Shown here: positions 18,879 through 25,160 of the stretch, piece after piece
Position numbering within the stretch: the first letter of the stretch is position 1
How the letters are laid out: the number at the start of each line of letters is the position of its first letter
DNA from: Planobacterium oryzisoli
GTDB taxonomy: Bacteria; Bacteroidota; Bacteroidia; Flavobacteriales; Weeksellaceae
DNA: 64,000 nt
Reading direction: 5' to 3'
NCBI RefSeq assembly: GCF_015354315.1
Contig: NZ_JADKYY010000005.1
Coordinates: 1 to 64,000 of the forward strand
Translations under genes and position numbers: made by a program
Notes under the pieces: model-generated
Seen by the model: the letters and a program-made list of their open reading frames with translations, nothing else
What the model was told of the DNA's origin: nothing
Database searches by the model: none

Positions 18879-20816
18879 CTAATCAAGTACTTCATATATG
18901 GAGTTATTACTAACGTACTCAGGAACAATTTGTTTCAAAATTTTCACAACTTCCATTTTGTTCGACTTTCCTGCTGCCTCTAAGAGTTGTTCAACGAGTA
19001 CTCTAATACTATCATAGGCCACGGTAGGATCTTCAGAAATCATAATTTTCTCGTGATGTGTAGCCAAAGACTTAGCACCATCAGTAAGGAGTTCTTCATA
19101 GAGCTTCTCTCCGGAACGTAGACCGGTAAATATGATTTTGATGTCGACATTAGGTTCAAATCCAGATAACTTTATCATTCTCTTCGCAAGATCTAGAATC
19201 TTCACGGGCTCACCCATATCAAACACAAACACTTCACCACCTTTTCCCATCGCCCCAGCCTCCAGCACAAGTTCACAAGCTTCAGGTATGGTCATAAAGT
19301 AGCGTACTATTTCAGGATGAGTGATTGTGACAGGGCCACCCCCTTCAATTTGCTTTCTGAACAAAGGTATCACAGATCCATTTGAACCTAGAACATTACC
19401 AAAACGTGTGGTTATAAATTTAGTAACGTTTCCTTCCACATTTTGCATAGACTGGACAAATAATTCTGCTGCTCTTTTGGTCGCTCCCATCACATTTGTG
19501 GGATTCACAGCTTTATCCGTTGAAACCATAACGAATCGTTCAACAGAATACTTACTAGATAGACAGGCTAAATTCTTGCTACCCGATATATTTGTCATAA
19601 CCGCTTCCTGGGGATTATCTTCAACAAGAGGTACGTGTTTGTAGGCTGCCGCATGATACACTACAGAAAATTTATACTCTTTAAACAAACACTCTAAACG
19701 TAACAAATTCCTCACATCTAGAAGTACAAACTTAAATTCTATATATGGAAAATTTTTACGGACTTCCAACTCAATTTCATACAAAGGTGTTTCTGCCTGA
19801 TCTAAGACCACTATCAATTTAGGATTAAATTGAGCTACTTGCCTTACAATCTCGCTTCCAATAGAGCCTGCTCCTCCGGTGATCAAAACTGTCTTGCCTT
19901 GATGATGGGTTTTAATCTTATTGTTTTCAATCACAATTGGACGTCGATTTAATAAATCCTCAATTTGCAAATTCTTAATAGAAGAACTTAAATCACTTTC
20001 ACGAAGCTTCTGCACTGTAGGGGCTTTAAATATCTTTATGTCTTTTGAAAGAAATAAACTAACCCAATCGTTCATTTCTTGTCTACTCATCATTTCCTTA
20101 ATTATGAGTACCCCTTCATAACCTAAGTCCTCCTTAGTATTGTTCTCAACCTTCTGTTTAGAATAAATAGGCTTTCCAAGTAAACGCACTTTTTTAGAGT
20201 CCTGACGCTCGGTGATAAATCCCACAACCTGGTAAGGCAAATGGGAATTATCCAATATAACACTACCAATTGCTACGGCCTGCTCGTCTATCCCTAGAAT
20301 AAGTATTCTCTTTTTTAAAGAGCTCCTTCGAAACTCTTTAACTATGTTGAAAAATTCTTTAACGAGTAACCTAAACATGAACAGAAAAGTAAAGGAAACA
20401 CTAAAATACACCAGTAAAACCGGTGTTCTTATAAGTTTGAAAGAAAATACAGCTGCATTTAATAAGTTTAACAGTTCTAAAGAAACTACTGTAAAAAAGC
20501 TAGCTAATAATAATTTAAATAAATCAAAAAACGTCGAATGACGAATTATTCCAGAGAATGTTTTAAAAATGTACATAAAAAGTACATTGACACATAAAAT
20601 GAGAAGATACTTCTGAGCAAATGAAATAGTATTTAAAGGACTTACACCTAAACCTAAAACAATCTCATAGGAGATAAAAATAGAAATTAAAATAATGACA
20701 ATATCTATAAAGAGTATAATCCATCTAGGTAAATACCTAAGTTCAGATATACTAACTATATTATCACCAAAATATATTTTGTTAAGTGCCTTTTTCAGCG
20801 AACTTATTCTACTCAT
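18879..20816 (-). CDS. Membrane-bound FlaA1/CapD/WbpM-type nucleotide-sugar dehydratase
   Basis: This 645-residue protein starts with about four transmembrane helices (residues 30-155). A first nucleotide-binding fold follows (RILILGIDEQAVAIGS), then the catalytic SDR domain with TVLITGGAGSIGSEIVRQV and STDKAVNPTNVMGATK. Methionine replaces the YxxxK tyrosine, as in the WbpM/CapD group. These enzymes dehydrate UDP-GlcNAc to the 4-keto-6-deoxy sugar used to start many capsule repeats. It is the first gene of the capsule operon, and the promoter at 20893-20923 lies upstream. There is a second, soluble dehydratase in the operon, so two deoxy-amino sugars may be made. Confidence 0.92.
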   Translation of the reverse strand: MSRISSLKKALNKIYFGDNIVSISELRYLPRWIILFIDIVIILISIFISYEIVLGLGVSPLNTISFAQKYLLILCVNVLFMYIFKTFSGIIRHSTFFDLFKLLLASFFTVVSLELLNLLNAAVFSFKLIRTPVLLVYFSVSFTFLFMFRLLVKEFFNIVKEFRRSSLKKRILILGIDEQAVAIGSVILDNSHLPYQVVGFITERQDSKKVRLLGKPIYSKQKVENNTKEDLGYEGVLIIKEMMSRQEMNDWVSLFLSKDIKIFKAPTVQKLRESDLSSSIKNLQIEDLLNRRPIVIENNKIKTHHQGKTVLITGGAGSIGSEIVRQVAQFNPKLIVVLDQAETPLYEIELEVRKNFPYIEFKFVLLDVRNLLRLECLFKEYKFSVVYHAAAYKHVPLVEDNPQEAVMTNISGSKNLACLSSKYSVERFVMVSTDKAVNPTNVMGATKRAAELFVQSMQNVEGNVTKFITTRFGNVLGSNGSVIPLFRKQIEGGGPVTITHPEIVRYFMTIPEACELVLEAGAMGKGGEVFVFDMGEPVKILDLAKRMIKLSGFEPNVDIKIIFTGLRSGEKLYEELLTDGAKSLATHHEKIMISEDPTVAYDSIRVLVEQLLEAAGKSNKMEVVKILKQIVPEYVSNNSIYEVLD

Positions 20817-21043: not shown

Positions 21044-22234
21044 TTACTTAATAACAAGCCTGTGCGCCATTTTTGAAAATATTTGATAGTTGGTTTTCTG
21101 TACCAGGGAAGTTGTATTCTCATCTAAAAAACCACTTGCTTTACTTGCAAAGGATGAAATAATACATTCTAAATGCTTATTATAATCATGGTACAAAAAA
21201 TCATTTTCATCGGGTACTGCTTCTACATCAATAAATATTTTATTGTGTTTTAGCACATTTATGAGATTAATAGTATCCATAACAAATGATCTATTTATAC
21301 CATAATAATGCAGGCTATTAGTTACATCATGTAGTCCGTCCAAATGAAATTCTTCAATAAGTTTGTATGCAGCAGAAATGTCTCCAAATAGAATAATAGT
21401 ATTTGCTAAGAACAGTTTTAGTTCTTGCCTTTGAAAATCAGAGTTTACATTTTCTTTCAACTCTAGGAGGTACTTCTCTAAAAGTTGATTGTATTCTTTA
21501 AAATCTCCATTTTCAAACGCCCTAATTAGCTTGAGACTAGTATAGCGCATTTCGTGAAAAGGCATAAAGATACGGAGTTTGCGGTAGTCATTATATGTTT
21601 TTTCCCATTCGGACTCAGTCGGTTTGTACTTTACATTTCCACAACTTAAAAAATCACCTAAAAGCAAAAAATTTAGTTGTGAAAGACGTACAATCGGGTT
21701 TGTAGTCGAATCCGCTTTCTGTCTAATTATTTTGCGGTAATAATCTTGAGCGAACAGGTTATAATTTGGTATCCAAGCATAAATGTAATCTGTGGCCCAA
21801 TTATTTTGTGAATACTGATGGTGGAAATATACTAATGTGTCTTTCGATTTGTAGATAATCTTCGCGTATCCATTAAAAGTATCTGTAATAGCAGTATCCC
21901 TATAATAATCTATATCATGCTTTTGTCCAGCTTCAAAAAATACCGACATATTTCTTATATACTCCATGTCCTTTTCAAGGTTGGATTCTGTATTTTCAGA
22001 ATAATCCTTATAAAAATGTTCCCAATCAAGATACCCACAGTACTTAGCAAGCAAGCTTAGAGTAGAATAGCTTAATGAGTTACCTCCAGAAATTTTTCCA
22101 AAAAAACGACGTAGAGTTTGTACGCTAAGCCCTGTATCTAGTGCTAACTGCTGTAAACTCTTTAGTGATCCAACGGGACTATTGAACCTACTTTTAACCT
22201 TTTCTTGTAGAGAATGGATTGCTTTTGTACTCAT
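21044..22234 (-). CDS. HTH-containing regulatory protein of unknown target
   Basis: This is a 396-residue protein whose first 75 residues form a helix-turn-helix: LQQLALDTGLSVQTLRRFFG followed by LSYSTLSLLAKYCGY. The rest is helical, rich in aromatic and charged residues, with no signal peptide or membrane segment, and I do not recognise a catalytic motif. Similar proteins in Flavobacteriia are annotated only as hypothetical or HTH proteins. It sits between the TPR-AraC regulators and the capsule operon on the same strand, so it might act on either. A possible -7 box (TATTTTTG) is at 22280-22273. Confidence 0.6.
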   Translation of the reverse strand: MSTKAIHSLQEKVKSRFNSPVGSLKSLQQLALDTGLSVQTLRRFFGKISGGNSLSYSTLSLLAKYCGYLDWEHFYKDYSENTESNLEKDMEYIRNMSVFFEAGQKHDIDYYRDTAITDTFNGYAKIIYKSKDTLVYFHHQYSQNNWATDYIYAWIPNYNLFAQDYYRKIIRQKADSTTNPIVRLSQLNFLLLGDFLSCGNVKYKPTESEWEKTYNDYRKLRIFMPFHEMRYTSLKLIRAFENGDFKEYNQLLEKYLLELKENVNSDFQRQELKLFLANTIILFGDISAAYKLIEEFHLDGLHDVTNSLHYYGINRSFVMDTINLINVLKHNKIFIDVEAVPDENDFLYHDYNKHLECIISSFASKASGFLDENTTSLVQKTNYQIFSKMAHRLVIK

Positions 22235-22847: not shown

Positions 22848-24521
22848 TTAATTTTGTAAAATATTAACTTCTACCGAACATTTTTTGACTTCTTGAATAA
22901 ATTCCGACGGGGTGCTACCATTAAAGCTTTGAAACTGCTTAGTGAAAGACTGCCTTGATACAATACCACACTCTTTAGCTAATGCTTCCACTGTATAGTT
23001 CCTATACTTCGAATCCGTAGAGATCAAGTTGGTTATATACTTTATTCTTAATTCATTTATATAAGCTGAGAATCTAACATTCTTTTTGGAATTTATCACA
23101 TAAGACAAATGTGCAGTATTACTATTAAATTGAGCTGCTAGGCTATTCAAAGATAAATCTTTGTCGAGATACCCCGCCCCTTTTTCAAATAAATCAAGTT
23201 TCTTTAAAATATCCTCAATGATTTCTATTGACATTTTATTTTTTCTCTTTTCAGTGGATACATCTTTTAAACTATCGCTTGATGTTACTAATTCAGCAAG
23301 GTCGTAATATTTATCTTTAGGTATATGCCATTCTTTAATATGATTATTTACACCAAGGTACAGCACGATAAATAGTAAGAAAGCATTTCTCCATAAAGGT
23401 TCACCTTTAATTGAAATTGATTTTTGTGAAGTTGAATGATATAGCTTTGTAAATATCAACTTGGAAATTTTATTATTGGAACTATTTAGCCGCTTATCAA
23501 TCTCAAGACTTTTAGTAAGAAAACGAACCTTATCCTTTTCGGAGATATCGTTTAAGTTTAACAGCTCTTTGTAGGCAAGGTAAGTTTCGTTTACCGCAGT
23601 AGCGTGGATATTATAAAGTGAATCAATCTCATTTAATTTTTGTTTTCCTTTTAAATCCTGACCGGTCTTTAAATAAAAATTTCCTAAATAATAAGTACTA
23701 GAAATAACCCCTCTTTTATTTCCCTGTTTTCTATAAATTTGATTAGCAGATGTAATATACTGATAGGATTGAGGGTACATTTTTAAATACAAGTAATTAA
23801 TGCCCAATAACTCATTATAGCGCGCCCGTTCCAGCGCATCATTCACACCGTCCTCTAAGTGAGTTATTCCTTGTTTTATTATACTTGAAGATTTTTGGCA
23901 TAATGACAACTTGGAATAGCAGGAGGCCAGTTGATATACTGAATTGATATAGCCCTTTCGGTGGTTTTCAAAAATCGCAGAATACTGTGGCTCCATTAAT
24001 TGCGATTTATAATACTTAGCAGCACTTTCAAATAATTTAATAGCTTCCTCATTATACCCTAAATGCTGATATACTACTCCTATATGATAACGCGTTTTAT
24101 GGTATAAATATAAATCTTCCTGTTCTAAAAGGTTATATGCCTCGTTAGAGCGTATTAAATCGTTCACCGCCTTTTGGAAATTACCAAAATCTCTGTAATA
24201 GATAATTGCTCTATTTAGATATGCTGTTGCAATTAGTAATTTATCATTAGAATTTTTCGCACTTAGTACGCTTTGTGTTGCAAATTTAATCTTGCAGGAT
24301 AAGTTTGTAGAATATACTGACGCATCTTCATAAACATACGTGAGATGGTAGTAATTTTTTGCATACTGACCTTCTTTTATACTTAAATTAAGGCTTTCAA
24401 TAATTTGGTCTGGATATGCTGCTTGTGAGTACTTTTTTTCGTAAAACGAATATCCTTTAATTGTTTGAGAATATAATGTCCCTTTTAATAATACGAGCGC
24501 AGCAAACAGCAATGTCTTCAT
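22848..24521 (-). CDS. TPR-transmembrane-AraC family regulator
   Basis: This is a one-protein sensor and regulator. A signal peptide (MKTLLFAALVLLKGTLYSQ) leads into about 330 residues of TPR-like helical repeats, for example LYHKTRYHIGVVYQHLGYNEEAIKLFESA. A hydrophobic segment near residue 385 (NAFLLFIVLYLGVNN) follows, then a C-terminal AraC DNA-binding domain (SLAAQFNSNTAHLSYVIN, VEALAKECGIVSRQSFTKQF). The repeats are probably periplasmic and the HTH cytoplasmic. The frame opens upstream with GTG at 24539, but the ATG at 24521 gives a cleaner signal peptide and 557 residues. A small lipoprotein gene diverges from it 202 bases away. Confidence 0.8.
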   Translation of the reverse strand: MKTLLFAALVLLKGTLYSQTIKGYSFYEKKYSQAAYPDQIIESLNLSIKEGQYAKNYYHLTYVYEDASVYSTNLSCKIKFATQSVLSAKNSNDKLLIATAYLNRAIIYYRDFGNFQKAVNDLIRSNEAYNLLEQEDLYLYHKTRYHIGVVYQHLGYNEEAIKLFESAAKYYKSQLMEPQYSAIFENHRKGYINSVYQLASCYSKLSLCQKSSSIIKQGITHLEDGVNDALERARYNELLGINYLYLKMYPQSYQYITSANQIYRKQGNKRGVISSTYYLGNFYLKTGQDLKGKQKLNEIDSLYNIHATAVNETYLAYKELLNLNDISEKDKVRFLTKSLEIDKRLNSSNNKISKLIFTKLYHSTSQKSISIKGEPLWRNAFLLFIVLYLGVNNHIKEWHIPKDKYYDLAELVTSSDSLKDVSTEKRKNKMSIEIIEDILKKLDLFEKGAGYLDKDLSLNSLAAQFNSNTAHLSYVINSKKNVRFSAYINELRIKYITNLISTDSKYRNYTVEALAKECGIVSRQSFTKQFQSFNGSTPSEFIQEVKKCSVEVNILQN

Positions 24522-24545
24522 AAAGTACAATAATATCACGAATAC

Positions 24546-24576
24546 ATCTCAATTTATAATAATTTTTTATTGAGAT
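24546..24576 (-). promoter_or_regulatory. 8-base inverted repeat upstream of TPR-AraC gene
   Basis: ATCTCAAT (24546-24553) and ATTGAGAT (24569-24576) are perfect inverted copies with 15 bases between them, located 25 bases upstream of the TPR-AraC start codon. The word ATTTATAATAATT overlaps this element at 24552-24564 and occurs again at 24633-24645. These could be binding sites for the regulator itself. The region is very AT-rich, so chance cannot be excluded. Confidence 0.35.
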
Positions 24577-24660
24577 TTTCATTTCATTATTAAATATACT
24601 TAAAATATGGTGTAATTTATAAATCCAGTCATATTTATAATAATTCACTCCATATCAATC

Positions 24661-24691
24661 TTGTTAACTACTAAATAAGAATGTTTCTTTG
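24661..24691 (+). promoter_or_regulatory. Predicted promoter of small lipoprotein gene
   Basis: TTG at 24661-24663 and TTTCTTTG at 24684-24691 are 20 bases apart, which matches the Bacteroidota promoter with one mismatch in the -7 box (TAnnTTTG). The start would be near 24698, about 25 bases before the ATG at 24724. Confidence 0.5.
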
Positions 24692-24723
24692 ATGTAATAA
24701 TAATTTAAAAAACTTATATAACC

Positions 24724-24924
24724 ATGAAAAACTCTGTTACATTATTCATTTATGCTTTAATGCTCTTGAATCTATTTTCCTGTAGATCTGATTTTTCCGA
24801 TTCCCTTGAAACTTCGTCAAATGGAATTATAAAAAACGACTACAAATTAGAATTTGACCAGAAAAAAGATACTGTAAAACTACCACCCCGGAAAGATCGT
24901 CAAGACTGGCTAATGCAACCTTAA
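24724..24924 (+). CDS. Small secreted lipoprotein/peptide
   Basis: This 66-residue product has a lipoprotein signal (MKNSVTLFIYALMLLNLFSC) with the modified cysteine at residue 20, leaving a mature chain of about 47 residues. That part is acidic at first and ends in the basic, aromatic stretch VKLPPRKDRQDWLMQP. No known domain is visible. It diverges from a TPR-containing membrane regulator, has its own promoter-like sequence and is followed by a strong terminator at 25134-25160. A small exported ligand for the periplasmic TPR domain is an attractive but untested idea. Confidence 0.7.
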   Translation: MKNSVTLFIYALMLLNLFSCRSDFSDSLETSSNGIIKNDYKLEFDQKKDTVKLPPRKDRQDWLMQP

Positions 24925-24935
24925 TCCATTATTTT

Positions 24936-25103
24936 ATGCAAAAGACTTTCATTTACACAATAAAATCGAGGGCACTTCCAATAGTAATTCAATCTGGAAA
25001 ACCCTGTCCATACAATGGTCTGGTTCTAAAAGATAGTAAGCGAAGTAGAAAAAAGCATTTAAATAAGCTCTCCTACATAGACTTTACTTTTAGATACTTT
25101 TAA
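24936..25103 (+). CDS. Possible 55-residue ORF
   Basis: An ATG 11 bases after the small lipoprotein stop opens 55 codons ending in TAA. The product is basic (many Lys and Arg, including LKDSKRSRKKH) with no signal peptide and no recognisable family. It may be co-transcribed with the lipoprotein gene, or may be random open frame in the 3' untranslated region. No strong evidence supports translation. Confidence 0.25.
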   Translation: MQKTFIYTIKSRALPIVIQSGKPCPYNGLVLKDSKRSRKKHLNKLSYIDFTFRYF

Positions 25104-25133: not shown

Positions 25134-25160
25134 AATAGGCAGCCCGATCGGCTGCCTATT
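25134..25160 (+). terminator. Rho-independent terminator between convergent genes
   Basis: AATAGGCAGCC and GGCTGCCTATT form an 11-base-pair perfect stem around the loop CGATC. A T-rich tract (CTTTTGGATTTTTTTTT) follows on the plus strand. The right arm overlaps the stop codon of the convergent CinA-type gene. It ends the lipoprotein transcript; the minus-strand side has no T-run. Confidence 0.8.

Follow-up and report, generated by a model that had tools for sequence, protein, structure and literature searches.

A TPR-TM-AraC regulator and a small lipoprotein encoded divergently from it form a conserved module of the Weeksellaceae, and the two partners probably act as sensor and ligand: the lipoprotein tail would be the regulator's tethered peptide ligand, and the regulator would in turn control the lipoprotein gene. 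The pairing, the C-terminal motif of the lipoprotein, the covariation between this motif and residues of the TPR domain, and operator repeats that track the DNA-binding domain (DBD) were each established computationally. In the mechanism proposed here, the lipoprotein would be exported and lipidated, its lipid end serving as an anchor from which a variable linker of 30-45 residues would reach into the envelope. The C-terminal motif, D-P-P-x-K-D-x-x-x-W, would bind the concave groove of the regulator's periplasmic TPR domain. From there the signal would travel through the one membrane helix to the AraC domain in the cytoplasm; this domain, acting as a dimer, would occupy direct repeats with 22-bp spacing immediately upstream of the promoter of the lipoprotein gene. 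Under the regulator's control would be the lipoprotein gene together with, in many relatives, the genes that follow it. Physical binding, its location in the groove and this membrane topology are inferred. The ligand is taken to be tethered in the same cell rather than released as a peptide, and the evidence suits a tethered ligand no less than a released one.

Conservation of the regulator-lipoprotein pair

The window (the whole stretch of DNA that was analysed, 64,000 nucleotides in length) belongs to a genome of 2.1 Mb, whose relatives within the family include Chryseobacterium, Epilithonimonas, Kaistella, Cloacibacterium, Elizabethkingia and some annotated simply as Weeksellaceae. The features of the locus are collected in Table 1. 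An earlier sequence-only reading had assigned the regulator, R1, a signal peptide, TPR repeats, a membrane helix and an AraC domain, and this architecture is borne out by Pfam and by the AF2 model (mean pLDDT 86.8): TPR_12 scores 31.9 bits against a cut-off of 30.1, and HTH_18 scores 35.6 bits against 33.6, placing the latter with AraC/XylS domains. The likelier start is an in-frame ATG at 24521, from which the protein begins MKTLLFAALVLLKGTLYSQ..., a sequence resembling a signal peptide. With a signal peptide before the TPR repeats and a membrane helix after them, R1 is predicted to cross the inner membrane with its TPR side in the periplasm; its transmembrane segment, AFLLFIVLYLGV, is by hydropathy the weakest or nearly the weakest in its family. 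Fold comparison by VIA matches the TPR domain to LGN (Z 26), Rap with Phr peptides (Z ~24), NprR (Z 22.5) and KLC1 with C-terminal peptides (Z 19), and RapF is also matched at the sequence level (E 1.2e-5). These four proteins all hold extended peptides; the common fold does not by itself prove function.

Table 1. Positions of the module and its neighbouring features in the window.
Feature	Position	Strand	Remarks
R2, AraC DNA-binding domain with half TM helix	22368..22847	-	159 aa; 48% identical to R1 DBD
TPR-TM-AraC regulator R1	22848..24539	-	563 aa from GTG; Pfam TPR_12 and HTH_18; AF2 model
AraC-type DNA-binding domain of R1	22875..23228	-	residues 438-555; HTH_18 and AF2 (AraC fold 438-562)
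Predicted membrane helix of R1 (short)	23343..23390	-	residues ~384-399 (AF2 TM-like helix 383-403)
Predicted periplasmic TPR superhelix of R1	23475..24464	-	residues ~26-355, AF2 model
Shared divergent intergenic region	24540..24723	.	between R1 and lipoprotein
Candidate Bacteroidota-type promoter of lipoprotein gene	24661..24691	+	TTG at 24661, 20 nt, TTTCTTTG at 24684; one mismatch to TAnnTTTG
Predicted lipoprotein	24724..24924	+	66 aa; lipobox LFSC, variable linker, C-terminal motif
Conserved C-terminal motif, window version L-P-P-R-K-D-R-Q-D-W-L	24880..24912	+	positions -9 to +1 around W62
Third-gene remnant	24936..25103	+	TGxxCPxSGxWE...MPxYCG family; only first part, QSGKPCPYNG, recognisable
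Intrinsic terminator between module and cinA	25134..25160	+	11-pair stem

Inspection of the sequence upstream of 30 regulator homologues revealed divergent lipoproteins of 66-92 aa with the tail D-[PE]-P-x-[KR]-[DN]-x-x-x-W. A profile built from 17 of the members found in this way gave more than 150 lipoprotein sites (E<=1.1e-10) in 296 genomes of the window's family, confirming the divergent 66-residue lipoprotein with a distinctive C-terminus that the sequence-only reading had described. Members of the family are mostly 66-92 aa long; Cys, Pro and Trp are invariant across the seed alignment, and the family motif is D-[PE]-P-x-[KR]-[DN]-x-x-x-W-[RK]. The 122 unique members share an order of signal peptide, lipobox Cys, often an acidic stretch (R-Q-x-[DE]-[DE]), variable linker and conserved tail. 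The lipobox Cys is anchored in all 122, which are thus predicted to be bacterial lipoproteins, and the motif Trp is likewise present in 122/122, being the final residue in 32; a D-[ST] element occurs in the linker of 94, compared with 37 in shuffles. The window lipoprotein ends in KLPPRKDRQDWLMQP, and its tail alone among the 122 has Leu at both -9 and +1. Neither Pfam nor NCBIfam has a model that the lipoproteins match at cut-off; these proteins are easily overlooked in annotation. Searching with the single 66-aa sequence returned mostly noise, the exceptions being two matches adjoining a regulator (in G067 and G037); similarly, a scan of genome contigs with a single regulator sequence found nothing, and an alignment query succeeded.

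Starting from the lipoprotein, the regulator lay at the expected divergent place in all 70 loci checked first, 57 of them outside the search profile, and with 60 further loci added, a regulator or its remnant accompanied 129 of 130 (a count that includes two interrupted regulators, at L173 and L174); the remaining locus, L152, ends at a contig end. Starting from the regulator, a lipoprotein was present beside 69 of 79 loci in a sample drawn with a pattern from paired regulators, re-reading of which gave a lipoprotein at L252, a variant motif at L201 and a frameshifted remnant at L229. The neighbourhood for which the sequence-only reading had proposed a survey is thus conserved in both directions. 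If the lipoprotein were an unrelated small gene beside the regulator, common ancestry of the locus alone would yield correlated distances between the two; chance adjacency or ordinary co-inheritance is nevertheless highly improbable in view of this pairing across genera and in many paralogues, the genes flanking the pairs, which vary between loci, and the tree-aware covariation described below. In a set of 296 genomes distributed across the order, no member of the lipoprotein family turned up beyond the family to which the window belongs. Other TPR-AraC regulators, from Weeksellaceae and other Flavobacteriales, have the same domain order and a similar DNA-binding domain, but the motif lipoprotein lay beside 0 of 25 of these other-clade genes.

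The sensor domain is far more conserved in paired than in unpaired regulators, and the helices that line the groove exceed the outer helices in conservation only within the paired clade (2.80 versus 2.46 bits, compared with 1.79 versus 1.73 in unpaired regulators). About 9 of the 79 regulators have no lipoprotein nearby and still possess a conserved sensor; some regulators of this kind may use a ligand encoded elsewhere, or a different ligand. One orphan clade (L208, L240, L258, L262 and L266) has no neighbouring lipoprotein and retains conserved sensors with Q148 and mostly D109, and it may listen to a ligand encoded elsewhere.

Covariation of the lipoprotein tail with the TPR domain

By mutual information, with average-product correction, motif position -4 and residue 148 of the regulator are by far the leading pair, at 0.449 against 0.272 for the next. 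Asp at -4 is accompanied by a basic residue 148 in 115/115 cases (Lys in 110, Arg in 5), whereas K148 occurs in 0/31 of those with Asn, His, Ser or Thr at -4 (phi 0.91). On the regulator tree, motif -4 and residue 148 change at least seven and at least eight times, respectively, and simulated independent evolution on that tree reached the observed association in 0 of 5000 runs. A scan for branch co-change over ~5600 pairs placed (-2,109) first (p=7e-9) and (-4,148) second (p=2e-7), both below the Bonferroni threshold. Residues 109 and 148 are predicted groove positions (5 of TPR2 and 2 of TPR3), and the covarying predicted groove residues of R1, in window numbering, are N109, K148 and R116. 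Co-change scores of groove columns exceed those of DBD columns (p=0.001) and those of the remaining columns within these repeats (p=0.019), an enrichment that is supportive rather than blind because the groove positions, derived from canonical TPR numbering rather than from coordinates, were applied after the first covariation list had been seen. Covariation had been put forward as a check on the pair, and at the level of residues the outcome is positive between lipoprotein tail and TPR groove, with (-4,148) and (-2,109) in the lead. At the level of whole distances, the tail tracks the TPR domain (0.14) no better than the DBD (0.26) in a Mantel test; as this signal is not specific to the TPR domain, whole-protein coevolution of tail and TPR was dropped as evidence.

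In genomes with two or three pairs (G009, G037, G043, G053, G308 and two others), each lipoprotein type stays with its matching regulator. In 111 of 158 family lipoproteins, compared with 8 of 29 other lipoproteins at the same loci, positions +3 to +6 relative to the Cys include at least two acidic residues, a pattern similar to the lipoprotein export signal (LES) of Bacteroidota surface lipoproteins, C-X-K-(D/E)2 (PMC5080379), but with R/Q rather than K preceding. These acidic, export-signal-like residues therefore leave room for a trafficking monitor or a surface-displayed signal. The first is a version of the ligand model in which the regulator would read the tail only during the lipoprotein's stay at the inner membrane; efficient export, to the outer membrane or the surface, would take the tail away, and the pair would report on trafficking. 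The long linker, too, would suit a monitor of this kind, which we regard as possible, if on the unlikely side, as the presence of several paralogous pairs in one genome, each with its own tail and operator, points to separate signals and not to a single housekeeping monitor, and the window sequence CRSDFSD fits the export signal poorly. The second would entail cell-to-cell or self-recognition signalling, with a surface-displayed or protease-released tail read by the periplasmic TPR groove through several orthogonal pairs per genome, in effect a lipoprotein-based periplasmic analogue of the RRNPP systems discussed below; this we consider doubtful. If the tail were exposed at the surface, it could meet a periplasmic sensor only in transit, which counts against the tethered-ligand reading.

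The intergenic region and the wider locus

The intergenic regions of relatives have a median length of 264 bp and contain direct repeats with a spacing of exactly 22 bp, located roughly between -160 and -95 relative to the ATG of the lipoprotein gene. Strong lag-22 repeats were detected in 23 of 121 regions, all with spacing 22, versus 3 of 363 shuffles, and lag 22 is the sole peak between 8 and 45 bp (11.9 versus ~8.7). A Bacteroidota-type TAnnTTyG box is present in 111 of the 121, and the repeats lie upstream of it. AraC/XylS proteins bind direct half-sites about two helical turns apart, to which the 22-bp repeats of relatives may correspond; in the window there is no clear repeat, with 9/18 matches at lag 22 and 12/18 at lag 21. 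Operator distances have a partial r of 0.40 with the DBD and 0.12 with the TPR domain, and since the operator tracks the DBD rather than the TPR domain, the sequences support direct control of the lipoprotein gene by the regulator. Ligand-stimulated positive feedback is slightly favoured over ligand-mediated shut-off, because the repeats sit at an activator position.

The same repeats, upstream of the lipoprotein promoter and tracking the DBD, would be expected were the lipoprotein the regulator's main target gene, an effector rather than a ligand, with the TPR groove sensing some other peptide, a glycan or a misfolded protein. Genes for unrelated secreted proteins lie divergently beside several TPR-AraC genes of other clades, so that a divergent target may be a ground rule of the family. 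We judge it unlikely that the lipoprotein is a target only, as its motif covaries with TPR groove positions, the groove-lining helices are extra-conserved in the paired clade alone, and the lipoprotein is pared down to anchor, variable linker and conserved tail.

The sequence-only reading had given the lipoprotein gene its own promoter and terminator. A candidate promoter of the Bacteroidota type can be found, with one mismatch to the consensus, and the terminator exists, but it lies ~210 bp past the lipoprotein stop and beyond the third-gene remnant. A leader element, GAATTC...GGCCGGGATAA, has 12 sites in 80 genomes, 12/12 at module positions and with no control matches; it is found in the 5' leader of relatives' lipoprotein genes (also written AGAATTC...CCGGCCGGGATAA; e.g., L035 and L074) and is not present in the window. 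A search of the lipoprotein, third gene and intergenic region against Rfam, Pfam and NCBIfam returned no family.

A third small gene follows the lipoprotein in ~71 of 158 loci (examples lie among L033-L257) and encodes a protein of 53-64 aa with the consensus TGxxCPxSGxWExxGxxxTTxxxxKGxxMPxYCGKKVxWxLI. Its AF2 model is all-beta (pLDDT 90), with no Pfam or NCBIfam match and no significant fold match in the PDB; the gene also adjoins response-regulator genes away from the module (L332 and L333). The remnant in the window has a local score of 55, the maximum in 300 shuffles being 45. Among the 79 regulator-first loci (L192-L271), a MauE-domain membrane protein with a 350-aa extension is encoded downstream of the lipoprotein in 47, sometimes followed by small secreted DUF6520-like proteins, a set that is possibly a disulfide-related or peptide-production operon under the regulator. 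RteC is found behind the regulator in 33 of the 79 and small HTH_17 genes in 19, which suggests frequent location on or beside integrative elements. The MauE-domain gene and RteC are both missing from the window locus.

Directly after R1 (TAA-ATG) lies a second AraC ORF, R2, absent from the earlier reading, in which the latter half of a membrane helix and a juxtamembrane segment come ahead of the AraC domain; it is a probable remnant of a tandem regulator copy and, if expressed, would be a soluble version without the sensor. R1 keeps 29 of 65 conserved sensor sites (family mean ~62), among them K83, K148, Y151, N192, N199, E237, D306, S307 and Y323. Judged by its sequence, the window pair is recognisable and may still function at its core in a divergent, partly eroded locus, and relatives are better suited to experiments. 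The eroded R1 and unclear operator of the window count against the tethered-ligand reading, as do the unpaired regulators that have a conserved sensor. A run of same-strand genes at 149-20816 has the look of a polysaccharide cluster, for capsule or EPS, and includes a gene for a PF02719 polysaccharide biosynthesis protein (18879-20816); it ends next to the module, and the regulator could also act on this cluster. Between the cluster and R2, positions 21044-22234 encode a protein of 396 aa in which a weak N-terminal HTH, scoring below cut-off for HTH_3, is the sole known domain.

Relationship to known sensory systems

The RRNPP systems of Firmicutes (Rap-Phr, NprR-NprX, PlcR-PapR and PrgX) likewise consist of a TPR receptor adjoining the gene for a small exported precursor, and Rap and NprR, with peptides in the groove, are the best bacterial fold matches of the module's TPR domain. 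The receptor repeats and the adjacent gene for a small exported protein are common to both. RRNPP receptors, however, are intracellular proteins of 250-500 aa (PMC10075063), whereas R1 has 563 aa, most of its relatives have 545-601 aa, and the receptor is predicted to span the inner membrane with the TPR domain in the periplasm. The module differs further in its AraC output, the proposed lipoprotein ligand with a C-terminal motif, the divergent arrangement of its genes and its Bacteroidota host. Membership of RRNPP was rejected on the grounds of location, length and output domain, and the RRNPP-like logic of the sequence-only reading fails in this sense. The broader proposal of a peptide-sensing pair is upheld in part: the conserved neighbourhood, the residue covariation and the Rap/NprR-like TPR domain favour it, and the lack of TPR specificity in the Mantel test and the failure of RRNPP membership do not.

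Closer in layout are the co-component systems (VtrA/VtrC, ToxR/ToxS, TcpP/TcpH and PsaE/PsaF), in which a membrane-spanning transcription factor and a small membrane-tethered periplasmic partner are encoded side by side (PMC9214523). The module, by prediction, has the same layout of a membrane-spanning factor with a periplasmic sensor and a neighbouring membrane-tethered partner. In those systems, which belong to enteric bacteria, the partner is a folded periplasmic domain and shares an operon with a winged-HTH factor, whereas the module partner is a largely unstructured, divergently encoded lipoprotein with a linear motif, and its factor combines TPR and AraC domains. Neither the folds nor the operon order of VtrA/VtrC is found, the module sensor being a TPR superhelix and its genes divergent.

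Secreted proteins of various unrelated kinds are often encoded divergently from the TPR-AraC genes of other clades (L272-L291), a hint that divergent envelope targets may be the general rule. Distant TPR-AraC genes at L054, L057 and L058 are divergent from larger lipoproteins of 185-230 aa (~230 aa at L057 and L058), which are perhaps a related but different partner.

A literature search, with subscription journals mostly outside its reach, gave no description of the regulator-lipoprotein pair, nor, in the literature searched, of what membrane-spanning TPR-AraC regulators sense; the module is real and, as far as searched, previously undescribed. Bacteroidota hold many such regulators, for which the module supplies a concrete ligand hypothesis with named putative contact residues (motif D-4 with residue 148 and motif -2 with residue 109). 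Ready-made orthogonal signalling channels may be available in the paralogous pairs, whose residues are matched, and the module suggests peptide sensing by a TPR groove in the Gram-negative periplasm with a lipid-tethered ligand.
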